Assembly: GCA_031761875.1 (NCBI GenBank)
Contig: CP134492.1
Coordinates: 3,968,001-4,032,000 of the forward strand
Origin: Bacillaceae bacterium IKA-2
GTDB taxonomy: Bacteria > Bacillota > Bacilli > Bacillales > Anaerobacillaceae
Reading direction: 5' to 3'
DNA length: 64,000 nt
Translations under genes and position numbers: made by a program
In this document: positions 51,457-64,000 of the stretch, in pieces
Layout of the letters: each line of letters opens with the position of its first letter
Numbering within the stretch: position 1 is the first letter of the stretch
Notes under the pieces: generated by a model
What the model was told of the DNA's origin: nothing
Databases searched by the model: none
What the model saw: only the letters and a program-made list of their open reading frames with translations

Positions 51457-52390
51457 TCAGCTCCCAAGTTTGTTCATTTCGTTAATATGATCAATCGCAT
51501 CAAGCATTGCTTCTGTTTTCCCATAATGAAAAAAAATAATTTCGCCACTAGGAAATTCGCTGCTGCGACCGACACGTCCTGATATTTGCACGAGTGCGCT
51601 TTCGCTAAAAACATCATCATCAGCACCATAGATAGCGACAGCGACATTTGCCACGGTCACCCCTCGTTCCAATATTGTTGTCGTGACAAGAAGTTGAATT
51701 TCAGCGTTACGAAATTTTTGAACTTTTTCATTGCGTTCGGGGTCCTCTGAGTGAACTCCATCAAGAGCTTGAAATTGAGTTTGAAGTAGTGGGACGAGCT
51801 TTTTAAGGACTGTTACTGAGGGGACAAACAGAAATGCTTGTTGCTGTGCGGCTACTTTTTCTGAAAGCCAATCAGTCAGGAGACTTGGAATATCGGCTTT
51901 TTTTAACTGATTTTGCCAGCTACCGATCCATTTTAATTTTGGAACAGGTAGTGGAAAGCCATGATAGCGTTTCGGAATTTTCACTGCGGTTAAAATGCCG
52001 TTTTGTACTTGTTTTTGCAATTGCTTATCTGGAGTTGCGGTTAAGAGGATTGTCGTAGCATCGTTTTTGCCAGCTTGATTGATGGCATGTTTCAACATTG
52101 GGTCATAGGAAAGTGGGAACGCATCGACTTCATCAATCACGACAAAATCAAAACAATTTTCATAGCGAAGCAGTTGGTGCGTCGTTGCAATGATTAGTTG
52201 ACCTGACTTGCCGCGATCTTCGCTACCGCCATAGAGTGAGAGAACTTCAACGTCAGGAAAAACTTTTTTTAAGCGCGGTGTAAGTTCATGAACAACGTCT
52301 CGACGCGGGGTTGCAATCAGGACATTCTGACCCATTTCAAGCGCGGAGTTTATGCCTTCAAAGAGGATTTCAGTTTTCCCAGAACCACAA
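51457..52390 (-). pseudogene. comFA: comFA, 3' two-thirds; 5' part cut off by a mobile element
   Basis: The frame reads from NPCGSGKTEILFEGINSAL (Walker A) through VIDEVDAFPLSYD (DEVD box), LTATPD and ISGRVGRSSEFPSG. This is a competence DNA helicase/translocase. The normal ~460-residue ComFA begins with a zinc finger and about 100 residues before Walker A; all of that is missing. Homology stops at about 52390, where codons become unlike ComFA. An internal ATG at 52335 could still start a 292-residue product without a P-loop. Loss of function is expected. Confidence 0.9.
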
Positions 52391-52491
52391 GGATTATCTT
52401 TAGTAGACCAATATATAAGAAGTATAAAAAGCTTGTCCTATTAATCTTTTTAACTTGTTATATATTAGTCTACATATAATACGTTAGAATT

Positions 52492-52938
52492 TTAAATTGG
52501 AGTTACTTTCTTAACGTGTTCTCTCAATCGAATAACCTCGTCTTTCAGTTCTTCGTGTTCCACCAATTGCAAGAGAAGATTGCGTTTATCTTCTTCAAGT
52601 TCTCTCACTTTTTGTCGTAGTTGTTTAATTTGCTGAACTTTTTGTTGGTTCGGTGTGGTGTACAAAACATCTTCTTTAGCTTCTTTTTCTTCAATTGCTT
52701 TTCGTTTTTGCATTTCACGTAAACCCATGATCCGCTCTTTGATTTGAAGGTTATTATATAAAGTGGCAGGGGTAACTCCTGCTTCTTCCGCAACAGTTTT
52801 AAAGTTGATTTGCTTGGTTTTGGAACGCTTTAATTTTGCTATAGCCTTATCTACTTTTTCAAAAGTTTGTTGTTGACGTAATTTAGCGTGTTCTTTTAAC
52901 CCAAGCGTGTTATCCTTTTTATTCTTCTTTGTTGCCAT
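52492..52938 (-). CDS. tnpC: Tn554 TnpC-like accessory protein (DUF6262 type)
   Basis: This 148-residue protein has an N-terminal basic piece, an HTH-like segment (INFKTVAEEAGVTPATLYNN) and a C-terminal coiled coil (KVRELEEDKRNLLLQLVEHE). In Tn554 the TnpC protein orients integration. The ATG at 52938 follows GGAGG and overlaps the preceding recombinase by 20 bases. It is intact, and its stop lies 100 bases from the comFA junction. Confidence 0.85.
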   Translation of the reverse strand: MATKKNKKDNTLGLKEHAKLRQQQTFEKVDKAIAKLKRSKTKQINFKTVAEEAGVTPATLYNNLQIKERIMGLREMQKRKAIEEKEAKEDVLYTTPNQQKVQQIKQLRQKVRELEEDKRNLLLQLVEHEELKDEVIRLREHVKKVTPI

Positions 52939-53893
52939 GTATCTGTGCCTCCAATCGTTCCACAATCGGGTTTAAATATATCCATTTCGCTTTTAAACGT
53001 TGATGTTCTCTTGTCCTACCTTCTGCTTCATAGCGTTCCATTTCACTCTCTAGGAGGTCTAGTTCACGCTTATGGATAGGGTAATATTCCTCCGTAGTTA
53101 CATAGTTAGGGCAATTGATGAAGATACAACCGTCACCATTATCACATCCCCCCCTACGAGAATCTTGTAGACATATACCAGTAGGTAGAGGATTGATATA
53201 CATTTCTTTTGTTAAATTAGAAATGAAATCTTCGATTTCTTCTTCGGCTTTGCCTTTAAACTGTTGTGCTAGATTTCTTTTAATGATACTTGCGTTAATA
53301 CCTGCAATTTTACTATTAGGAGCAATAATACTCTTTACCATATTTGCTGTTTCTTCAATTTTGACTCGTTTGTAATGGTCGGTCATTTCAGATGTAACAT
53401 GTTGATAATGTTTCATAATAAATGAAATAGGTACTCTCTTTCGAATTAAATCATTACAGTAATTCACTCTAAACTGGTGAGCTTGTAACGGATATAATTC
53501 ACCATCATCACCTCTTATATCCCATTTTTTAATAAATTTTTTTATTCGAGTATACCAAGAGCTTGAAGGTTTCAGTGTTACTATTTCCCCATAATGACCA
53601 TGCACTCTCGATAAAAATAATTCTTCAAATTCACTTTCTTGCCTTAATTTATTAGTATGTTCTTCGAGTTCTTGTATCGTGTCTACTACTAACTCATTGA
53701 CAAATATCTTATGTGGGGTGGGAATACCTCTGTTTGTTTTTGATATCGTACAGTCCATATAATAACCACCTTCTGAAAGTGGCTTAACACAACCTATTTT
53801 CAAACTTAAAATTTCGCTAAGACGAAGCCCTGTTTGAGATAACAATATAACTGCACATTTAGTTAAAATTTTATCTTCATTCATTGCACTGTT
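52919..53893 (-). pseudogene. C-terminal part of the third Tn554-like tyrosine recombinase (IS21-interrupted)
   Basis: About 325 codons remain, from NSAMNEDKILTKCAVILL. The catalytic Arg is in TGLRLSEILSLK, HxxR in QAHQFRVNYC, and the distal Tyr in TDHYKRV. A C-terminal Cys cluster (GGCDNGDGCIFINC) is present. Its N-terminal half lies 6 kb away at 59779-60384. Joined at the duplicated NSAM codons the two parts make one protein of about 520 residues. Confidence 0.88.
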
Positions 53894-53894
53894 T
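53881..53894. repeat. Left target duplication of IS21 element
   Basis: CATTGCACTGTTTA here and CATTGCACTATTTA at 59779-59792 differ at one base. They encode the same Asn-Ser-Ala-Met codons of the split recombinase, as expected of a target-site duplication. Confidence 0.7.
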
Positions 53895-54015
53895 ATGATA
53901 CTCTAAAAGTGGCCCATTAATAGAATAATATCAATTGAAAAACGGTCCAGTACTTTAACACTAATCTCTTACTGTTATGATGGCAGTAAAGGGGTGGGAT
54001 GGAGTGATTGAGATA

Positions 54016-54801
54016 ATGGACAAACATGCAATAATAAAACTAAAGCAGCAAGGTGTATCCAATAGAAAAGCTGCCAAGCTTTTAAACATCAATCGGAAAA
54101 CAGTCGCAATCTATTGGAATGAGTACCAGAAGAACAATACTCTGTTGAATGCCTTAGACGTTAATAAAAAAGAAGTACAAGAAGTACAAGAAAAAATATG
54201 CGAGGCACCAAAGTATAATGCTCAAAATAGAAAGCCAAGAAAGTACACAGCAGAAATCGATACCAGATTAGACGAAATCCTAGAGAGTGAATCTGAAAAG
54301 TGTAAAGAGTTAGGTCGACATAAACAACAGCTGACTAATTTGCAAATTCACCAAATGCTAGTCAATGAAAAGTTTGATATTGGATATACAACTATTACAA
54401 ATAAAATCAGAGAAAAAAGAAACAAACCTAAGGAATGCTTTATTAAACAATCATATGATTTAGGGCAAAGACTTGAATATGATTTTGGCGAAGTGAAGTT
54501 AGAAATAAACGGGGAGATCAATACCTATCATCTAGCTGTACTATCTTCACCAGCTGCTGATTTCAGATGGGCGTATTTATATAAGAATCAAAAGCAAGAC
54601 GTCTTTATGGATTCTCATGTGCGTTTCTTCGATATGTTAGGTGGCGTTTATTCAGAGATTGTGTACGACAATATGAGAAATGTAGTATCAAAATTCATAG
54701 GTAAAACTGAAAAAGTCCTCAATGAGAATTTGCTAAAATTGTCACTCTACTACGGATTCGATATCAACGTCACTAATTGTTTCAGTGGAAACGAGAAGGG
54801 T
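54016..54801 (+). pseudogene. istA: istA, 5' part (IS21 transposase)
   Basis: About 262 codons from ATG 54016. The N-terminal HTH (QQGVSNRKAAKLLNINRKTV) is followed by the DDE integrase core: first Asp in LEYDFGEVKLE, second in IVYDNMRNVV. The frame runs to FSGNEKG and then enters foreign sequence. The rest resumes at 58302. The two parts together would give a normal-size IstA of about 490 residues. Confidence 0.9.
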
Positions 54802-54885
54802 AATGAAAAGTATATGATAATGTAAAGTAAGGCTGTTAAATAACCGTAAGTAAAGGATCCCTCGCTGTTTTACTTTACATTATCT
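54794..54885. repeat. Left end of RIT: outer inverted repeat and paired inner motif
   Basis: The outer 45 bases recur inverted at 58231-58275. Within this end GATAATGTAAAGTAA (about 54816-54830) faces an inverted partner TTACTTTACATTATC (54871-54885). This could be a pair of recombinase core sites with a ~40-base interval. Confidence 0.75.
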
Positions 54886-54902
54886 GCAACGCAAACACTA
54901 TT

Positions 54903-55952
54903 TTATTTATCAAATCTTTTTAGCCATTCCAATAAATCTCCACTTTTTTGCCAAGAAGGTGCACCTTTTGGTACAACATCTGTATATGCTTTTTCAATTG
55001 CTTCTCTTTTTTGTTTTGAATCTACCTTAGCGTAAATTTCAGTTGTTTGGACAGAACGGTGACCTAGTATATCACGGATGTATATGAGATTAACTCCTGC
55101 TTGGAGTAAGTGCATAGCTTTTGAATGTCTCAGACAATGACAGCTAAATCGTTCTGGGATTAATATTTGATCTTTAATACGAGCCTTGCGTGCATATTTA
55201 TCTAGTATGTAATTCACCCCTGCCCGGGTCAGTTTTTCTCCTCTTTTGTTACAGAACAATGGGTACATGTTTGCTGACAAACTTAACAGCCCCTGCTCAT
55301 CCATATATCGATTTAATAAATCTAACGGAGCATCCATCAGAGGGACTATCCGGGCTTTATTCCCCTTACCAATTAACTTTACAGTACATGGTCTGTCAAA
55401 ACGTACTTGTGACGGAGTGAGGTCAATGATTTCCTGTACTCTTCCACCGCTTTCATACATAATTGACAAAAGAGCAAGATCTCTTCGTCCTATTTTAGTT
55501 GACTGATCAGGCATTTCCAAAAGTAGTCTGATCCCATTAAGCGTTAGGTAACTGATTGATTTTGTTTCTGTTTTCTTAACCCGGATTCCAAGGATTCTCT
55601 GCCATTCCAAAAGATTATCGGGGCTCTGATACTGGAGATATTGGAAGAAAGAGTGTAATGCCGCAAGGCGGACGTTCCTTGTGGCTGTACTACAGCCACG
55701 CTCTGTTTCTATCCAGTCAAGAAAGTGAATAACCATTTCCTTATTAATCATGCCCAGCGTCAGAGAATTTGTTTTTATTCCTTTTTTATCCTTGATAAAT
55801 GTAAGGAAAAGTACAAATGTGTCTCTATAAGAGGCAATCGTATTTATACTGAACCCCATTTCTCCTGGCAGGTATTTTGTAAGAAATCCTGTCAGATAGC
55901 GAGAGAAATCAGTCGGCTTCATAATGGTCAACCTCCGGAAATACATAGGCAC
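54903..55952 (-). CDS. RIT tyrosine recombinase 3 (RitC)
   Basis: This is a tyrosine integrase of about 339 residues if the ATG at 55922 is used; GGAGG lies nine bases before it. N-terminal SAM-like core-binding domain, then the catalytic domain: Arg in ESGGRVQEIIDL, HxxR in CHCLRHSKAMHLL, His in LGHRSVQTTEIY with the nucleophile Tyr. Its start overlaps the end of the second recombinase by 14 bases, so the three are probably translationally coupled. Confidence 0.9.
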   Translation of the reverse strand: MPMYFRRLTIMKPTDFSRYLTGFLTKYLPGEMGFSINTIASYRDTFVLFLTFIKDKKGIKTNSLTLGMINKEMVIHFLDWIETERGCSTATRNVRLAALHSFFQYLQYQSPDNLLEWQRILGIRVKKTETKSISYLTLNGIRLLLEMPDQSTKIGRRDLALLSIMYESGGRVQEIIDLTPSQVRFDRPCTVKLIGKGNKARIVPLMDAPLDLLNRYMDEQGLLSLSANMYPLFCNKRGEKLTRAGVNYILDKYARKARIKDQILIPERFSCHCLRHSKAMHLLQAGVNLIYIRDILGHRSVQTTEIYAKVDSKQKREAIEKAYTDVVPKGAPSWQKSGDLLEWLKRFDK

Positions 55953-56883
55953 AAACGTTATCTACTTCTCTAATTAAATCAGGGTACATGTCAGATGTTA
56001 GCCTTACATACTTATCTGTAGCCTCTAATGACTGATGCCCAAGATATTTTGATAATATTGGGAGTGAGTAGTATAAATCTAGCCCAGCTTCTGACATTTT
56101 CACAAGAGAGTGTACACTGAAAGTGTGACGAAAGTCATGCATTCTTGGGCCAAAACCCTTCCCACCATGTGGAATTCCTGCATTCCAGAGTATTTTTCTG
56201 AACCATTCATATATTGCCTTGGCATTACATTTTTGCCCATTGTTCTTGATAAAAAAATAACCTTTCGGTTCATATTTGCCGGGACGAACATTCCTATATT
56301 GAATACACACCTCAGTTAGTGTTTCAGATAATGGGAGTATTCGGTCTTTGCCGTTTTTCGTTTCCCTGACAATAATATTTTTTGCATCAAGATCAACATC
56401 CTTACATGTTAGGGATAACGCTTCGCTGATACGGATGCCACAGCCATATAGCATTCTAAATAAAGCGGGGAGTACATACACAGTTGTTTCAAATCGTCTA
56501 TTAACTTTAAGCGTATCACATGCATCGAAGAATGCATTCACTTCCTTTTTCGAGAAAATATGTGGTACAAACGTACTGCTGTACTTTTTAGGCAATCTCG
56601 GTATATGTGATGGATATCCCATATCATTTAAATAGGCGGAAAATTTTGCAATATAATGAATCCTCGCATAACGTGTCTTGTCTGATTCATTTGGACGCTT
56701 CTCACTCCATTTATCAACAATCTCCTTTGATAGACCGAGTTTTAATACGGCATTATCTATTGTAAATCTGTCAAATAACGAAAGTGTGTAAGTGGCATCA
56801 ACAAACTTGTAACCGAGGTTTCTTTTGAAATCAATGTACTGTTCGATTAAACCAGCATAAATACCACAATAGTTCGGCATCAT
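55909..56883 (-). CDS. RIT tyrosine recombinase 2 (RitB)
   Basis: This 324-residue recombinase starts at ATG 56883, with an ATGA overlap with the stop of the first gene and GGAGG just before. Catalytic Arg in YGCGIRISEALSL, Lys in VRETKNGKDR, HxxR in MHDFRHTFSVHSL, and LGHQSLEATDKYVRL. Complete set. Confidence 0.9.
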   Translation of the reverse strand: MMPNYCGIYAGLIEQYIDFKRNLGYKFVDATYTLSLFDRFTIDNAVLKLGLSKEIVDKWSEKRPNESDKTRYARIHYIAKFSAYLNDMGYPSHIPRLPKKYSSTFVPHIFSKKEVNAFFDACDTLKVNRRFETTVYVLPALFRMLYGCGIRISEALSLTCKDVDLDAKNIIVRETKNGKDRILPLSETLTEVCIQYRNVRPGKYEPKGYFFIKNNGQKCNAKAIYEWFRKILWNAGIPHGGKGFGPRMHDFRHTFSVHSLVKMSEAGLDLYYSLPILSKYLGHQSLEATDKYVRLTSDMYPDLIREVDNVCAYVFPEVDHYEAD

Positions 56884-58133
56884 TCCACCTCCTTGGCATA
56901 AAATGGCGTTTTTAAGAGTGGAACATCTAATGCGCATTGGCTCAAAGATGTTAAGTCTATTCGTAAATAAGTTTTTGTGCTTTCGGTATTCTTGTGACCT
57001 AGCACTTCTGATATAACATGGATGGGTATTTTTTGTTCCAGTAGTTGCCCAGCAAGACTGTGCCTCAAAGCATGAGGACCATGTTTCTTTTCTGTTATGT
57101 TTTTAATGCCAGCACGACGGAGATAAAAAGTAACAATGCTATGCAAAGTCGATCTATTTAGGCAGTTATATGGCGGGATTGCATGTAGGAAGACATAAGG
57201 AAGATCAGATTTAGGCCGTCCATACTTCAGATAATCGATAATAGCCTCTCCTATTTCTATTAAAAGTGGATGCTCAATCTTATTTTTAGTCTTTTGTTGA
57301 ACAAGTGTAATTGTATTCTTTTCCCAGTGTATGTTTTCAAACTTCAACAGACAGATGTCAGAAGCCCTCAATCCCAATCGTGCAGCCAATAGTATCATAG
57401 CAGCATCACGCTTCCCTTTTGGGCTACTTCTGTCAACAGTATTGATTAATGATTCAACTTCATTTTTCGTATATGTCGTGGGTAGTTTACATTGCTTCTT
57501 GTAATTGTCTTTTGGAATTAGGTATGAAAAGTCAATCCCTGTATACCCATTGTCATGTAGATATCTCATAAACCCACGTAAAGTGGTAAGCATGCTGTGG
57601 CGCGTTGCAGGTGTATAAAAACCAAGCTGATTCACAAATCCTAAAATGTGTTGTTTTTTAATTGCTTCGGTTTCCATGACTCCTTCTTCATTAAAAAAAC
57701 TAAGAAAGCGATGAAGATTTAATCGGTAATGACCAAGCGTATTTTCTGTAATACCCAAAGATTTTCGGTGATTAAGGAAATCCACCATAGGATTACCGAT
57801 GCAACCATAAAATTGGTAGGATTTCTTTGCCCTTCTGTATTGGAACGTTCCTGTAGACTGAAATTCAGTTAGAACATCCACACACCGGATTATGCTCTTT
57901 TCCCAATGGCTAAATTCCTCGTATTTCCCAGTACCAATAAAGTCAGCTATAAATGCTCCACCTACTGACGCTGAATAATACTCAATCTGATTGTTTTCCA
58001 TAAAAGTAGCCAGTTTTTGCCACGCGGAACGATATTGGCTTATCCTTGATTCGGAATAGGACATATCCCGAAGGGATTTAACTACTTCTGAGGACAGTTG
58101 TTCAAATGTTTGATATTTTTGTTCCATAATCAT
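56880..58133 (-). CDS. RIT tyrosine recombinase 1 (RitA)
   Basis: This 417-residue recombinase has the longest N-terminal arm of the trio. Catalytic Arg in AARLGLRASDICLL, Lys in VQQKTKNKIEHPL, HxxR in GPHALRHSLAGQLL, and LGHKNTESTKTYLRI. GGAGG lies about ten bases before the ATG at 58133. It heads the trio. Confidence 0.9.
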   Translation of the reverse strand: MIMEQKYQTFEQLSSEVVKSLRDMSYSESRISQYRSAWQKLATFMENNQIEYYSASVGGAFIADFIGTGKYEEFSHWEKSIIRCVDVLTEFQSTGTFQYRRAKKSYQFYGCIGNPMVDFLNHRKSLGITENTLGHYRLNLHRFLSFFNEEGVMETEAIKKQHILGFVNQLGFYTPATRHSMLTTLRGFMRYLHDNGYTGIDFSYLIPKDNYKKQCKLPTTYTKNEVESLINTVDRSSPKGKRDAAMILLAARLGLRASDICLLKFENIHWEKNTITLVQQKTKNKIEHPLLIEIGEAIIDYLKYGRPKSDLPYVFLHAIPPYNCLNRSTLHSIVTFYLRRAGIKNITEKKHGPHALRHSLAGQLLEQKIPIHVISEVLGHKNTESTKTYLRIDLTSLSQCALDVPLLKTPFYAKEVE

Positions 58134-58185
58134 AACCTCCTATATTTAACGTAGGCGACCTCGCCTATATTAAATATAGCCATTG

Positions 58186-58300
58186 AAAATGTAAAGTAAA
58201 ACAACTAGAATCACTTTGTTTATAGTTATCTAACAGCCTTACTTTACATTATCATATACTTTTCATTACCCTTCTAATGCAAAGCTTTACATTAGAAGGG
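58186..58300. repeat. Right end of RIT with additional palindrome
   Basis: The inverted outer repeat ends at 58275 (AGAAGGG inverted). AATGTAAAGTAAAACAAC (58186-58203) faces TTACTTTACATTATC (58239-58253). Beyond the outer repeat there is a 32-base perfect-type palindrome (58269-58300), CCCTTCTAATG ... CATTAGAAGGG around CAAAGCTTTA. It is absent from the left end. Confidence 0.8.
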
Positions 58301-58301
58301 T

Positions 58302-58982
58302 CATGTGGAGGGCAGCGTGAAGATAATTAGGAACAAAGCATTTGCGTTAACTTATAAGTTTAAGACATTCGATGATGCACGTGAATACTTGAATACTATA
58401 TTGATAGAACTCAATAAAGACAGCACTATTTCTGAAGAAATAAAACATCTTCAACCTACAAAACCAAAGCTTGATCTTGCAACAGTTACAGTGCAAAAAC
58501 CAAATAAATATAGTTTTGTACGAGTTGATAACAACCACTATTCAGTACCGGAGTATCTTGTAGGACGCTTAATAACAATCAAGAAATATTACGACACAAT
58601 AGGCTTTTATTCAAACAACATACTCGTTTGTGAACACAAAAAAATAGATGGTACTAACGAGATAAGTATTAAAATTAAACATTACTTAAACTCATTAAAC
58701 AAAAAACCAGGTGCAATCAAGAACTCCCACGCTCTAAAAAGCATACCAAGGTTAAAAGCCATCTATGATACTAATTTTAGCAGAAACAAGAAAAAATTCA
58801 TAGAGATCATTCAAGAAAATGATGATAAACCAATCGAAGAAATACTATTGATTCTAGAAACATACAATAAATCTCATATCGATATTATTCCATCTATGCA
58901 CATAGATAAAACTGCACTTAGCAACATCGCTACAAGGCAAGTATCTAGATATAACGAATTATGTTTCTCGGAGGTGGAATAA
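58302..58982 (+). pseudogene. istA: istA, 3' part
   Basis: About 227 codons resume with the continuation HVEGSVKIIRNKAFALTYKF of the IstA C-terminus: the third catalytic residue, Glu of VEGSV, and the beta-barrel DNA-binding end (NKYSFVRVDNNHYSVPEYLV). It stops at 58982, one base before istB. It needs the 5' part at 54016-54801. Confidence 0.9.
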
Positions 58983-59729
58983 ATGCAAATACAAGAAATG
59001 GCCCATATACTAAAATTACCCTATATAAAAACCAATTATCAAATGCTTCTTGATGAAGCAAACCATACAAACATGACCCACCGAGAGCTGATAAGTCGTC
59101 TACTCGAAAGAGAATTAGAACTAAGGCTTGAGAATGGTTTAAAACATAGACTCAGAAGGGCTAAATTCCCTCTTAACAAGTACTTAGAAGACTTCGACAA
59201 GAGTAAGTACCATAAGAAATTTATACCGAAATTCGAAGAACTAGAAACGTTGCAGTTCATTGAAAATAAAGAAAATATAATCTTAATAGGATCTCCTGGC
59301 TGCGGGAAATCACATTATAGTATTGGGCTTGGTATTAAGGCGTGTTTGGAAGGCAAAAGTGTATTGTTTATCTCTGTACCTAACTTAATAATAGAGTTAA
59401 AAGAAGCAATGAGTGAAAGCAAACTATCGCAATATAAAACCAAATTTGAAAAGTACAGTCTTGTCGTTTTAGATGAACTGGGATACGTATCATTTGACAA
59501 AATTGGTTGTGAAATACTATTTAATTTATTATCAAATAGAAACGATAAAGGATCAATAATCATAACAACAAACTTGGCTTTTGATCGCTGGGAAGAGATT
59601 TTTAAAGACCCGATGCTTACTGGTGCAATTGTAGATAGACTTGCTCACAAATCACATATCTTAGATATTTCACGAGAAGTAAGTCACCGATTTGAAGAGA
59701 CAATGTCATGGCTAAAACCAACTAAATAA
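58983..59729 (+). CDS. istB: IS21 IstB AAA+ ATPase
   Basis: This 248-residue transposition helper is DnaC-like and loads IstA and target DNA. Walker A GSPGCGKSHYSIGLG at about residue 100, Walker B LVVLDELGYVSFDKIG, arginine finger region AIVDRLAHKSHI. The ATG follows GGAGGTGGAATA in the istA stop. It is apparently intact but has no intact IstA partner here. Confidence 0.93.
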   Translation: MQIQEMAHILKLPYIKTNYQMLLDEANHTNMTHRELISRLLERELELRLENGLKHRLRRAKFPLNKYLEDFDKSKYHKKFIPKFEELETLQFIENKENIILIGSPGCGKSHYSIGLGIKACLEGKSVLFISVPNLIIELKEAMSESKLSQYKTKFEKYSLVVLDELGYVSFDKIGCEILFNLLSNRNDKGSIIITTNLAFDRWEEIFKDPMLTGAIVDRLAHKSHILDISREVSHRFEETMSWLKPTK

Positions 59730-59778
59730 GTGGACCTTTTTTCAACTGATTCGTGGACCGCTTTTGAGTTGACAAATA

Positions 59779-59792
59779 CATTGCACTATTTA
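59779..59792. repeat. Right target duplication of IS21 element
   Basis: CATTGCACTATTTA, the partner of 53881-53894 with one mismatch. Confidence 0.7.
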
Positions 59793-60384
59793 TTATTTTA
59801 TTGAATATATCTTGAGGGATTTCTTTATATTTTCTATCATCCATTTGTTTATAAGCTTCTTTTAAAAATAATTTAGCCGAATTAATATTCGCAAACAAAT
59901 TTTCTTTTGGTACGTCCCAACCCTTAATTTGACCAACCTTTATTAGTTCTTCAAGAGCATTAACATACCTAAAACATGTAAAAGGTGCTAAAGGTTTACC
60001 ATTATTACGTTTATTAGGTTTATTTCTTATATATTCAGCAAAATCTTTGAAAGTTGCAGTGTTTAACTGACTAAAACAATCAATATTATATTTCGAGCAA
60101 TATTCATTTATAAATACACGTAAATAGGCATATATTTTTTTATAAACGTGTAAAAGAGAAACAACACCTAGTAAATAATAGGCATAATTTTTTAAAGTTT
60201 CCTTCATTACAGGACTTTCACAAAAAGTAAAATCTAATTTTTTTACTGAATTAGGTGTTTGATTATTAGTAACTAGGGGAGTTAAATCCCAAATATCATC
60301 TTGAAAATATGAGTTACCTACCTTTGGATTTCTTTGGGAAAATTCATTCTGTAGTTGGAGTTGTACATTAGCTTTCTTGTCCAT
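59779..60384 (-). pseudogene. N-terminal part of the third Tn554-like tyrosine recombinase
   Basis: About 202 codons from ATG 60384 (GGAGG before it) are the core-binding SAM-like domain, ending at FNKIINSAM, where IS21 begins. The open frame continues about 15 residues into IS21 sequence. The catalytic domain is at 52919-53893. Confidence 0.88.
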
Positions 60385-61819
60385 TTTGAAGTTCCTCCAA
60401 TTTAATGATAATATCTCTTAAAATTTCAACCGTAGGTTGATAATGGTTAACAAAGTGATCCCCAAAAACTGTAGCATTTTTGTCTATTTCTTCCTCTAAT
60501 TCTACTAAGTGTTTTTTGTGTTCTTCTAGGTATGCAGGTGTCGTAACATAGCGGTGACAACCAAAACACTTATGCATCTTTAAATATGTGGGACAGATTT
60601 CTTCATCATCGGTTATTGGTTTAGTGCAATAACCATTTCGCAACTTTGCTTGAGTATCTTTATTTTCCATAAACCATTTAAACTCTTTTTCATCTGGAAT
60701 CACTTGATTGTTTATTTGGTTTATATCCCCAATAATTCCTACACTCTCGAATATTTCCGCTCGTTCTTTGTCTTTTATGTCGGCATAATATTTTGATGTG
60801 GTTTTTAAAGTGTTCCCCAATACACTAGCTACAGAATGTAAATCTGTACCCTTTGAAAGCATGTCAGTAGCTAATGTTCTTCTAAATTGATGATTGGTTA
60901 TATCAGTAATTTTGCCAGTGTTATCGATGATGTTGTGTTTTTTACAAAACGCTCTTACCCAATCGAGAAATGTACCTTTATGTGGCACTTTAATTTGACC
61001 GCAATATTCGGCTCTATCAGGTTTATGCAAAAACAAATAATCTTTAATAGAATCATCAGCTAATTGTCGATATTCTTCAGTGTGGCTCTCAATTTCTCTA
61101 ATAGCTTTAAGGCAATTGAGGTTTATAGGCATAGGGTCAGTTAGCTTATTTTTTTTCTGCTCGTAACGTTGTAGTTGCCACCCACTAACAGGGTGCTTAG
61201 ATAAATATTGAACTTTTAACGAATACAATTCTGAAATCCTCATTCCAGTTTCTTTTAAAATGATAATTATATTTCGTTTCAATACATTTGTTTCTATCTT
61301 TAAAGCTTCTTCAATTTGAGTAACTACCTCATCTGGAATAAAGTCAATTTTTATATTATTATTCATTATAAATTCTTTACCTGTGAATATTTCGCCTTTT
61401 GGCGCTTGCTGAGGATAATGCATTTGAACAAATCGTATGAAACCTTTAAAACTAGATAAAATATGTCTTTTGTGTGCTTGTCCAAAAGGCTTATTTGTAT
61501 ATTTTGAGGTTGTAGTGTTCAAAAAGCTTATCAATAAATCAACTTCATTATTAGTCATAGTATCCAAAGATATAATATCGTTTTCAACTAGAAAGGTATC
61601 CACTTGTTTTAAGTTTTGTATTGTTTTGTATAATGTTGAAGGTACTAAAAAGTTGCTTTTGAAATTGACCCATATATACGCCTTTACTAAGCGTTTAAAT
61701 TCTTCGTTTAGTATCAGAGAAAAGTCTAATTTAGTAAACTTTTTTTCTAAAATATAATTCGAGTCATCTATATCTAATTTCCATACATCTCCTTTTGGGT
61801 GTTTGTACCTTATACTCAT
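60368..61819 (-). CDS. tnpB: Tn554-like tyrosine recombinase (TnpB type)
   Basis: About 483 residues. Catalytic Arg in ETGMRISELYSLK, HxxR in NHQFRRTLATDML, and Tyr in TSKYYADI. The usual second His is Asn (VLGNTLKTT), which may be a family variant or a defect. The C-terminus carries CPTYLKMHKCFGCHRYV, a Cys/His cluster typical of large Tn554-type recombinases. The ATG overlaps the tnpA stop (ATGA). Confidence 0.85.
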   Translation of the reverse strand: MSIRYKHPKGDVWKLDIDDSNYILEKKFTKLDFSLILNEEFKRLVKAYIWVNFKSNFLVPSTLYKTIQNLKQVDTFLVENDIISLDTMTNNEVDLLISFLNTTTSKYTNKPFGQAHKRHILSSFKGFIRFVQMHYPQQAPKGEIFTGKEFIMNNNIKIDFIPDEVVTQIEEALKIETNVLKRNIIIILKETGMRISELYSLKVQYLSKHPVSGWQLQRYEQKKNKLTDPMPINLNCLKAIREIESHTEEYRQLADDSIKDYLFLHKPDRAEYCGQIKVPHKGTFLDWVRAFCKKHNIIDNTGKITDITNHQFRRTLATDMLSKGTDLHSVASVLGNTLKTTSKYYADIKDKERAEIFESVGIIGDINQINNQVIPDEKEFKWFMENKDTQAKLRNGYCTKPITDDEEICPTYLKMHKCFGCHRYVTTPAYLEEHKKHLVELEEEIDKNATVFGDHFVNHYQPTVEILRDIIIKLEELQNGQES

Positions 61820-62892
61820 TCCTCCCAATCAATGCCTTTCAACTTCCAATAAGCAGTTAACGCATTTTTTTGATGTGTTTTACGAACATGTACATATTTT
61901 TCTGTAGTTGATATATGTTTATGACCCATAATGTCTTTAACAATAGCTGAATCATGACCTGCTTCCAATAAATCTGTAGCAAAAGTATGTCTTAAATCAT
62001 GGAAGTTAAAATCAAATCCTACAATTTCTTTAAGGTTTTTGAACTTTTGATAGCAAGCACTATAAGTTAATTGCTTCCCATAATGTTTCTTGGATAAGGC
62101 AACAAATACATATTCATGTTCGACATCGATATAGTCTCGTACTTCCATAATGTATTCGTCAAGTTCAATTAACATATCGGTAGGGATTATAATATCTCTA
62201 TTTTTCCCTTTGCTTTTAACGTTTTTAATAACCGACATCTCATTTTCATGACTAGGAATCGGCAGATTACTATAAGTTAAGTTCAATACTTCTTGTATTC
62301 TAGCCCCTGTAGTAGCAAGTATTTTCCATATAAGTCTATCTCTTTTATTGTCAATCGCATTAGCAATACTTTTAATTTGTTCATAAGATAGTAAATTGAA
62401 AGGTTGCACTTGAGTCTTAACTTTAAAGATAGATTTATCAAGGTTTTTCTTTTGGATATGGTGTAATAACCCTTTAAATGGTCTAAAATGACTTGGCATC
62501 GATTTCATTAAAATAGGATTATTAAAATTTCGAACTTCCGCCCAATATACATAAAAACCATGAACAGTACTTAGAATCCTGTTAACTGTAGCAGGTGAAC
62601 GCTTACTCTCATTATACAAAATTGGTAAATCATTATACGGGTCATCCATTAACAAAAACATACGAAAAGAACTAATATCAGCAGGGGCTACTTCTTCAAA
62701 ATCCAAATGATTATAAGTAAGAAATTCCCAAAAAACTTTTAAATCTTTCGTATATGCTTTCATGGTATTAAATGCCTTACCATCATTAAATATTTCTTTT
62801 ATATACACATATACAGGTTTTATTAACTTCATTTTTTTATCTATTAAAATCGGAAAACTACCATTCTCATTTTCAATATTATGAACTTCCAT
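61816..62892 (-). CDS. tnpA: Tn554-like tyrosine recombinase TnpA
   Basis: This 358-residue recombinase matches Tn554 TnpA in size (about 361). Catalytic Arg in TTGARIQEVLNL, Lys in NVKSKGKNRDI, HxxR in FHDLRHTFATDLL, and MGHKHISTTEKYVHV with the nucleophile Tyr. Complete. AGAAGGAG precedes the ATG. It is the first gene of the transposition operon. Confidence 0.9.
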   Translation of the reverse strand: MEVHNIENENGSFPILIDKKMKLIKPVYVYIKEIFNDGKAFNTMKAYTKDLKVFWEFLTYNHLDFEEVAPADISSFRMFLLMDDPYNDLPILYNESKRSPATVNRILSTVHGFYVYWAEVRNFNNPILMKSMPSHFRPFKGLLHHIQKKNLDKSIFKVKTQVQPFNLLSYEQIKSIANAIDNKRDRLIWKILATTGARIQEVLNLTYSNLPIPSHENEMSVIKNVKSKGKNRDIIIPTDMLIELDEYIMEVRDYIDVEHEYVFVALSKKHYGKQLTYSACYQKFKNLKEIVGFDFNFHDLRHTFATDLLEAGHDSAIVKDIMGHKHISTTEKYVHVRKTHQKNALTAYWKLKGIDWEE

Positions 62893-63254
62893 AGATTTTC
62901 TCCTTCTATTACATAAGTTATATATATAACAAGTGTTTATACTATTATTATAACGTTATTTAACAAAATAACCAACCTAAAAATAACTATAAAATAAATT
63001 TGTTTTAGGAAATAAAAAAGCTACCAGTAAAGGGAGTGCAACTTAGGGGTTTACGGAAACAAGTAAATTTTTAACTGACTCTCTTTAAGCGGAGGCTCAA
63101 AAGTAAAGACTGCACCGCAGGATAAATCCTTTAGTACAGTCTTTCTTTAAGGGCTGAGGACTTCACGCTCAATGATTGAAGCAATCCGCTCATTCATGCA
63201 ACGAGTATTCATAACTTTCAAATGTGCGGCACTTCCTTTATCGTGAAATTATAG
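62893..63254. other. Right-end region of the transposon and spacer before HsdS
   Basis: This 362-base stretch has no gene. It contains the tnpA promoter region, an ATATATAACAAGT motif that is the inverse of one near the left end, and a hairpin (63105-63144: AAAGACTG/CAGTCTTT enclosing AGGATAAATCCT). No ComFA-coding sequence was recognised here. Confidence 0.5.
63105..63144. terminator. Hairpin after the HsdS fragment
   Basis: The 8-bp outer stem AAAGACTG/CAGTCTTT has T-rich flanks on both strands (CTTTCTTT; ACTTTTG). Probable terminator for the HsdS gene or a transposon-end structure. Confidence 0.5.
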
Positions 63255-63992
63255 CTAAATTTTATCACTATAAGGCAAAGATTTCATATATTGATCGATC
63301 CATTCCCAATTCGGAATGTATCCCAAGTCCGAGTATTCATGTGAGGGATCGTACACGATTCCATTTTTGTCATGTTTAATAGGTAATTTAATTATGAAAT
63401 CTTTCTTAAAATGTGAATTAAGTTCTCTCTCAAACGCTTGATATTTAATTTTACATTCGTTTCTTATGAGTGTTGCGATAAATAGTTTTACATGCTTACT
63501 CATTGGAAATTTCTCTTGTAAAACAGCTACGTTTTGTGCTGTATAAAAAGGCTCTTTCTGTATAAAACAAGAGCCTAAAAAGCTACCTCTCAAAGCAAGA
63601 GACAGCGCACCTTCTGGGAATGGTTCTTGCTCGTCAATTTCATCTACAAAACCTACGACTCCGTTTCCATTACTGTCACGCGATACGTAATTATACTTGG
63701 GGATATCACTACTAGTCATAATTGCATCTATGCCATTCCCCATGCTAGCCTTAAATATTTTATGTAGATAAAATCCTTTCCATTCTTTGGTCTTTAAACC
63801 CATACTTTCCGAAAGCCAAACTGTAGTTTTTGGCATTTTATAATTTAGAGAGTATATATAATTCTCAATAAAAACCCAATCAGGACTCCCTTCATCTGTA
63901 ACTGGCAAAAGTATTTTTTCGGAAAGGTATTTATTTTCAGTTACCTTTCGACCATAAGTATACTTATATTTTTTAGCTCCATTAGCACAGTT
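63255..63992 (-). pseudogene. Type I restriction specificity (HsdS) domain, 5' end missing or disrupted
   Basis: The frame has two copies of the HsdS-type end motif: PDWVFIENYIYSLNY and PNWEWIDQYMKSLPYS. These flank a target-recognition domain. An in-frame TAG lies at 63993-63995, and the sequence after it (KYKYTYGRKVTENKYLSEKI) reads as mid-gene, with no start codon and no ribosome site. The reading before the stop also looks coding, so the gene is cut by a nonsense or frameshift change, or it is the downstream part of a two-part subunit. The rest of the system would lie beyond the window. Confidence 0.7.
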
Positions 63993-64000
63993 CTAAGGAA

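Follow-up and report, generated by a model that had tools for sequence, protein, structure and literature searches.

Nested insertions in comFA

The window analysed here comprises 64,000 nucleotides of Bacillaceae bacterium IKA-2 (G000:C1:3968001-4032000, in a genome of 4.42 Mb assembled as a single contig). It carries a RIT (recombinase in trio) element within istA of an insertion sequence of the IS21 family, which lies in the third recombinase gene of a Tn554-like unit, which in turn lies in comFA. This nesting is confirmed (Table 1). The element families and the three nested insertions into comFA proposed in an earlier note on this DNA are supported, and all four of its levels are present, although the length of the IS21 duplication, the end of the outer unit and the span of the RIT excision had to be corrected.

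The three RIT genes overlap, give Phage_integrase matches and are enclosed by inverted ends identical over 45 bp, a length that our count confirmed. The RitB protein aligns with those of Cupriavidus and Paraburkholderia plasmid trios at 34.7-36.5% over 89-90%. The trio had been taken for the sole intact recombinase system of the locus; it is indeed the only set without a split gene, but the outer unit has two uninterrupted recombinases as well.

Table 1. Layers of the nested locus, with positions counted from the first nucleotide of the window
Feature	Position	Strand	Remarks
comFA, C-terminal half	51457..52394	-	cut at Walker A codons; ORF (open reading frame) 51457-52335, in frame back to ~52393
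Tn554-like unit, portion within the window	52395..64000		end repeat TATCTTTAGT at 52395-52404
DUF6262-like protein of outer unit	52492..52965	-	possible TnpC/GinD counterpart; 28.9 bits, Pfam cut-off 29
Third recombinase, C-terminal piece	52919..53889	-	
IS21 target duplication, left	53884..53889		TTGCAC
IS21 element including RIT	53890..59780	+	5,891 bp; exact ends TGT (53890) and ACA (59780)
istA, 5' part	53977..54801	+	through the core inclusive
Left core	54794..54801	+	AGAAGGGT
RIT body	54802..58267	-	3,466 bp; opposite orientation in 11 other copies
ritC	54903..55952	-	349 amino acids
ritB	55909..56937	-	342 amino acids
ritA	56880..58133	-	417 amino acids
Inner core	58268..58275	-	AGAAGGGT read on the - strand
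Near-palindromic spacer	58276..58293		18 bp, AATGCAAAGCTTTACATT
Right core	58294..58301	+	AGAAGGGT
istA, 3' part	58302..58982	+	after the right core; first codons H-V-E (catalytic)
istB	58983..59729	+	
Third recombinase, N-terminal piece	59781..60384	-	
IS21 target duplication, right	59781..59786		TTGCAC
Second recombinase of outer unit	60368..61828	-	uninterrupted
First recombinase of outer unit	61816..62892	-	uninterrupted

IstA and IstB give matches to PF22483, PF01695 and IS21_help_AAA above the cut-offs. The repeat of 14 bases previously seen around the IS21 reduces to a true duplication of 6 bp, the remainder being similarity of the IS end. The split of istA between NEKG and HVEGSV was placed correctly: the RIT core encodes EKG immediately before H-V-E of IstA, giving the break EKG^HVE. 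Removing 3,500 bp from the window copy, the length by which it exceeds the empty site, restores a full-length istA and reproduces the natural empty copies L029 and L030 with 0 differences over 2,391 bp; the excision of 54797-58293 suggested earlier falls 3 bp short of this. The intact IstA of the empty copies can be aligned along 97% of its length with a plasmid IstA (45%) and also matches IstA structures, and against the IstA of IS5376 (8q4d, 8b4h) NEKGHVE stands opposite TKGKVE. The Glu of KGKVE, E233 when counted along the printed chain, is the catalytic Glu of IS5376 IstA according to the excerpted text of PMC10122671.

Copies, junctions and orientation of the RIT element

The window genome contains 22 near-identical copies of the IS21 (40 of 87 first-look candidates scored): two are empty, eight hold the RIT in the forward orientation seen in the window, 11 hold it reversed, and one, L017, is rearranged. 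With istA and istB, TGT..ACA ends and short target duplications the element resembles its family, and it is ordinary except that 20 of the 22 copies are occupied. All 20 RitB copies of this genome (76 of 76 first-look candidates scored) lie inside IS21, and every one of the 20 RITs occupies the same istA core, immediately ahead of the codon for the catalytic Glu. Matching target duplications of 5-7 bp flank 17 of the 21 copies other than L017; they are missing at L012, L023, L028 and L030, and the ACCATT found on the left of L028 and on the right of L030 suggests an exchange between copies. Those 21 copies fall into five sequence classes and differ, besides presence and orientation of the RIT, by one single-nucleotide difference (L015) and one 12-bp deletion (L016). 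Divergence therefore cannot decide the order of insertion and is useless for dating the layers. Among plasmid records searched at the DNA level there was no near relative of the IS21 with its RIT (5 records, at most 6% covered).

An assembly artefact of collapsed repeats, which 5.9-kb repeats in 20 locations might invite, is hardly credible for a single contig in which 17 of 21 copies have matching target duplications of their own, and the same arrangement occurs in other genomes.

The empty junction reads istA - AGAAGGGT - istA and the forward junction istA - AGAAGGGT - RIT body (3,466 bp) - ACCCTTCT - AATGCAAAGCTTTACATT - AGAAGGGT - istA. A reversed copy equals a forward one in which the body and the 18-bp spacer are inverted separately, with 0 differences over 5,891 bp. 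The spacer is a palindrome that occurs 21 times in the genome, 21 of 21 at RITs, and its orientation is constant relative to the RIT; it stands at one RIT end in forward copies and at the opposite end in reversed ones. An exact-pattern search of the window genome for solo palindromes as excision scars found none. Comparison of the copies shows that forward and reversed insertions read as circular permutations of one putative circle in which a palindrome separates two inverted cores, and the pattern points to a circular intermediate rather than to inversion in place.

The 45-bp inverted ends and the presence of both orientations would also suit a phase switch, in which the RIT inverts where it stands through its own recombinases or RecA. 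The flanks of the reversed copies are not unchanged, however: in 11 of 11 of them, against 0 of 8 forward copies, the spacer beyond the ends has been flipped as well. One inversion between the inverted ends would not have turned the spacer; two independent inversions would be required, either on every occasion or a single time in an ancestor. We regard such a switch as very improbable.

A more serious alternative, which we hold possible but less probable than repeated insertion, is composite transposition. Here the RIT entered one IS21 and switched orientation once, and the combined element then spread with IstA supplied in trans from intact copies, so that homing to the motif occurred only once or twice in this genome. 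It would agree with the confinement of all RITs of this genome to IS21, with the target duplications of occupied and empty copies alike, with the identity of the copies and with the existence of two intact IS21. It would also mean that a non-autonomous element, 2.5 times as long, outnumbers its helper ten to one; the orientations are near equal (8 and 11), and the same target rule in other RITs and hosts, described below, is left unexplained. Because 20 of 22 filled copies in near-equal orientations need no helper outnumbered tenfold if the RIT itself invaded, it more likely spread through an already multiplied IS21 family than only hitch-hiked. The sequence of the two inner insertions, which the earlier note had taken to be legible at this locus, depends on this choice, since IS21 with RIT occupies 20 places of the genome in two orientations. 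If the RIT invaded a multiplied IS21, the proposed order of outer unit, IS21 and RIT stands; if transposition was composite, the RIT entered IS21 before IS21 reached the locus.

The rearranged L017 (G000:C1:2183726-2191219) has two IS21 right halves around one RIT, with a palindrome on each side, and no left-left partner occurs among the IS21 copies found. This is the arrangement expected if a forward copy and a reversed one underwent homologous recombination.

Target sites of related RIT elements

Four aligned RitB proteins served as the query of a survey that yielded 170 relatives, the best 80 loci of which were kept; a scan of genome contigs with the window RitB gave no matches. The genes ritA, ritB and ritC are all present in 76 of the 80 loci, three others (L131, L134, L172) are truncated at the end of a contig, and L173 shows no ritC on the DNA examined. 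Flanks of at least 300 bp were available on both sides of 41 loci, on one side of 15 and on neither side of 24, and targets were assigned with tblastn (IstA, IstB, DDE and ATPase queries), by reading of the flanks and by Pfam searches of 20 flank fragments. Among the 56 loci with usable flanks, 49 have the RIT at codons of an invariant motif, one has it elsewhere and six have no assigned target. For the 41 two-flank loci, 36 lie at motif codons, some judged from one side only: Walker A of IstB (13) and of ParA (12), the PP-loop of PAPS-reductase-like proteins (3), the HxxR of recombinases (3), the Glu of DDE transposases (2), and one each in a group II intron reverse transcriptase (RT), a C5-methyltransferase and the Walker B of IstB; L127 is the locus with its RIT elsewhere, and L129, L135, L138 and L179 are without assigned target. 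Thirteen of the 15 one-flank loci are at motifs as well (IstB Walker A 4, RT 3, ParA 3, and C5-methyltransferase, DDE Glu and IstB Walker B 1 each), with L113 and L137 unassigned, and four of the 24 short-flank loci could be read, L110 at IstB Walker A, L149 at ParA Walker A, and L168 and L174 at the DDE Glu.

The Pfam matches include AAA_31/CbiA for ParA targets, RVT_1 divided between the two flanks of L123, Phage_integrase breaking off at position 135-136 of the 172-position profile in L132, L136 and L177, DNA_methylase, PAPS_reduct for L128, rve for L178 and L094, and a response regulator for L129. Besides the 80 loci, seven plasmid regions with trios were read. In these the RIT interrupts a recombinase at TxRYY (L182, L185), a group II RT (L188), a protein read as PDDEXK-like (L187) and an IstA-like gene at PDN (L186), and no target was assigned for L183 and L184. 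The roles of the motifs other than the IstA Glu are presumed, least firmly for the CWAH and domain V cases mentioned below.

The target motif follows the phylogeny of RitB. The set comprised 94 proteins (the 80 loci, the window, six other loci of the accompanying genomes and the seven plasmid regions), forming 36 clusters at 70% identity, of which 26 have a motif target, one another target and nine no assigned target. Two labels, both counted as revised in these cluster figures, were changed before the tree was built: L169 moved from second Asp to Glu, on a reading of the flank frame, and L110 was assigned to IstB Walker A. The maximum-likelihood tree, restricted to 64 rows with a motif label (30 of 94 excluded: 29 unlabelled and L127 labelled 'other'), needs 13 changes for 13 target labels, where the minimum is 12, shuffled labels average 39.7 and 0 of 200 shuffles were as low; near-copies help this score, and the tree has several long end branches, the window's included, and weak forks at its deepest levels. 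One change suffices for 7 of the 10 listed target groups. The clade with RT targets joins Bacillota, Thermodesulfobacteriota, Bacteroidota, Myxococcota and a Rhodococcus plasmid.

The junction structure recurs too. A model scoring twin cores, palindrome and matching arms reached a score of at most 4 in 26 of 64 elements, while letter shuffles gave 0 of 1,280 even at a score of at most 5. Of the 38 IstB and ParA loci examined, 27 yielded a palindrome. In 26 of these it stands to the GK side of the Walker A break, the exception being L106; the orientations of the RIT beside these GK-side palindromes are 8 and 5 in IstB, and 7 and 6 in ParA.

A second case is provided by G004, a genome of the same genus, with four copies of another RIT (RitB ~40% at the amino acid level). 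Both orientations occur among them, and each interrupts, at the Walker A lysine, the istB gene of an IS21-like element. The 6-bp far, inner and outer cores are CGGTAA, GGGGAA and TGGAAA in L089; CGGAAA (its target), GGGGAA and CGGTAA (equal to the far core of L089) in L091; and CGGAAA, CGGAAA and GGGGAA in the reversed L090 and L092. The far and inner cores of L091 thus match the inner and outer cores of L090 and L092, which fits a donor-recipient path, and those two cores fit what a circle from an L091-like donor using its other core would leave; L090 and L092, in the same IS21 type, may represent one event. All three near-identical copies of the L091-type IS21 in this genome hold a RIT (40 of 63 candidates scored). 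A third RIT type of G004 occupies a DDE transposase gene at YAD (L094-L098), and one RIT of G001 an IS66-like transposase at CWAH. At L100, also in G001, a RIT adjoins DNA that we take to resemble domain V of a group II intron; an RNA active site is presumably a possible target.

Most related RITs with a readable site are thus shown to lie at what we read as invariant motifs of enzymes that belong chiefly to mobile elements and plasmids, and the choice of motif goes with the lineage of the recombinase. Our favoured explanation, to which we give a probability of roughly 0.7, is that the RIT is a site-specific homing element that lands at motif codons and disables the host gene. We hypothesize that RitA, RitB and RitC copy or cut the RIT out as a circle with the junction arm-core-palindrome-inverted core-arm, and that either core could recombine with the 6-8 bp of a target encoding the motif. 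Since either core would be usable, the RIT would land in either orientation, with the palindrome staying on one side of the target; insertion would break the host gene and so disarm IS21 here. Motif codons would serve as targets because diverged hosts still have that DNA in common, and conserved host DNA is the usual reason given for inteins and homing introns at motif codons, those elements occupying the most conserved active-site codons of their host genes. The RITs differ from them in that no homing endonuclease was seen and the host reading frame is broken.

Several points weigh against this explanation. The mobility of the RIT is inferred from copies, orientations and cores, so that circle and transposition are deduced, and if IS21 multiplied the two orientation classes of the window genome, they may represent only two independent events. 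The survey query included IS21-targeting RITs and the best 80 of 170 relatives were kept, and the collection therefore leans to their kin; many loci are near-copies, six of them from one Lachnospiraceae strain. Target calls were made partly by eye and some from one side only, six of 56 loci and nine of 36 lineages are without assigned target, L127 lies at the start of an HK97-gp10-like phage gene and not at a motif, four of the 20 flank fragments (L126, the right flank of L148 and both of L138) have no Pfam match, and the flanks of L170 have only helix-turn-helix matches. On the tree IstB Walker A needs three changes and DDE Glu two, while second-Asp targets are unclustered, their two changes for two rows being as expected by chance. 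Finally, 38 of 64 elements miss the strict junction model (26 without fit, 12 with scores of 5-13); these are partly head-to-head recombinants or elements with diverged cores, and others are unexplained.

The reliance on calls by eye, L127 and the six loci without assigned target, together with the predominance of mobile-element or plasmid genes among the targets, would also suit a safe-haven bias, in which RITs insert widely and survive only in dispensable mobile genes, the motif pattern arising from chance and selective reading. Survival does not explain why the same codon is hit in diverged genes (the break in IstB lies at residue 107-108 in many loci) or why motif and recombinase lineage are linked, and we consider this bias improbable.

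Homing at motif codons, our preferred reading, goes beyond what was known before, namely RITs and single cases in a transposase or radC gene, as far as the excerpts of the papers cited extend. The elements share with described RITs the overlapping ritA-ritB-ritC, a length of ~3.5 kb, inverted ends and, sometimes, multiple copies. In these excerpts RITs are reported in an IS66 tnpA and in radC (PMC2864759) and in a Tn6049-like transposase gene (PMC3414803), an inverted repeat of 28-29 bp with a palindrome is noted without interpretation (PMC3414803), subgroups of RitA, RitB and RitC are described (PMC8138268), and a table of a 2023 paper enters target specificity, empty site and movement of RITs as NT, not tested (PMC10214605). 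The RITs studied here are set apart from those described there by motif targets that are specific to the lineage and by a junction that has twin cores and is circularly permuted; the excerpts searched contain no motif target rule or such junction for RITs, and Ricker et al. 2013 (Plasmid 70:226) may describe them earlier. SE, GInt and Tn554 also use several tyrosine recombinases; by the same partial sources, circles have been detected for GInt (PMC5385486) and SE, and in SE and Tn554 the 6 bp flanking the donor are carried into one new junction (PMC10214605). The RITs of G004 resemble these in that the far core equals the 6 bp of the target and the outer core those of the donor. The RIT trio is unlike them in having no TnpC/Srap-like gene, and in its palindrome, its two usable inverted cores and its two orientations.

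The broadest form of our proposal, towards which we lean only slightly, is that RITs are cross-phylum homing hyperparasites, each lineage reading the DNA of one invariant catalytic or nucleotide-binding motif in enzymes of plasmids and other mobile elements, that they move by a twin-core circle and shut down IS families, and that donor cores record their jumps. If this is true, RITs could occupy nearly all members of an IS family within one genome and silence it in that way, and the ability to recognise active-site codons has arisen repeatedly among tyrosine recombinases, a point of relevance to natural transposon control and to the change of recombinase specificity. The target rule would unite scattered reports in IS66 tnpA, a Tn6049-like transposase and perhaps radC, and the data offer a testable mechanism in the sequence of the circle junction, the twin cores and the fixed side of the palindrome.

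Some survey loci have unusual arrangements. The same half of the target gene lies on both sides of the RIT, head to head, in L104, L105, L106, L132, L139, L154 and L174, and in some such loci the halves come from two different host genes. L145 and L177 are apparently RITs inside ritC of another RIT, at HxLRH. L101 and L102, in a Bacillus timonensis record, are two different RITs in one istB, at Walker A and Walker B, and ritC of the second has two stop codons. L141, L144, L146, L156, L161 and L165 are contigs of 3.43-3.49 kb that consist almost wholly of a RIT, the outcome expected of a multi-copy RIT collapsed in assembly.

The interrupted comFA gene and the outer unit

The C-terminal half of comFA starts with NP^CGSGKTEILF, and the N-terminal half matches G000:C1:4056344-4056829, ~36 kb away, where it ends in ..LIWAVC. 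The homologue in genome G002 is uninterrupted (KLLIWAVCGAGKTEILFEG) and reads LIWAVCGAGKTE across the break site, and a search for a priA-like helicase as a route to comFA was of no help. The distance between the halves makes the outer unit larger than previously thought: it exceeds the window, its other end lies ~24 kb past it, and a far end near 63000 is ruled out. An 11-bp match in L190, tried as the end of the unit, lies inside a protease-like gene and is taken as chance. The two ends have TATCTTTAGT in common, and the junctions read GTTTGT|TATC on the N side and GATA|ATCCTTGTGG on the C side, with TTGT common and an extra ATCC on one side. The unit is inserted at the P-loop (Walker A) codons of comFA. 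The distinct target rules assumed earlier for the element families thus missed a common theme, the RIT lying at the codons of the IstA catalytic Glu and the Tn554-like unit at those of the ComFA Walker A.

With two uninterrupted recombinases, a split third one and a DUF6262-like protein just below the Pfam cut-off, the gene count of the unit is nearer to GInt than to Tn554. Separate searches with the two pieces of the third recombinase place them adjacent, on the same strand and in the right order on a Malaciobacter plasmid, both under a feature annotated 'tyrosine-type recombinase/integrase', the match of the N-terminal piece being weak (25%, E 4e-5). Between the comFA halves (window 63255-63908 and L190) lie restriction-specificity-like fragments, a pair of an AAA ATPase and a subtilase-like protein, a Tn3-like transposase and resolvases. 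In a second species of the genus comFA (L192, G004:C1:1024277-1025140) is also broken just before the Walker A codons, and the neighbouring reading frames differ from those of the window.

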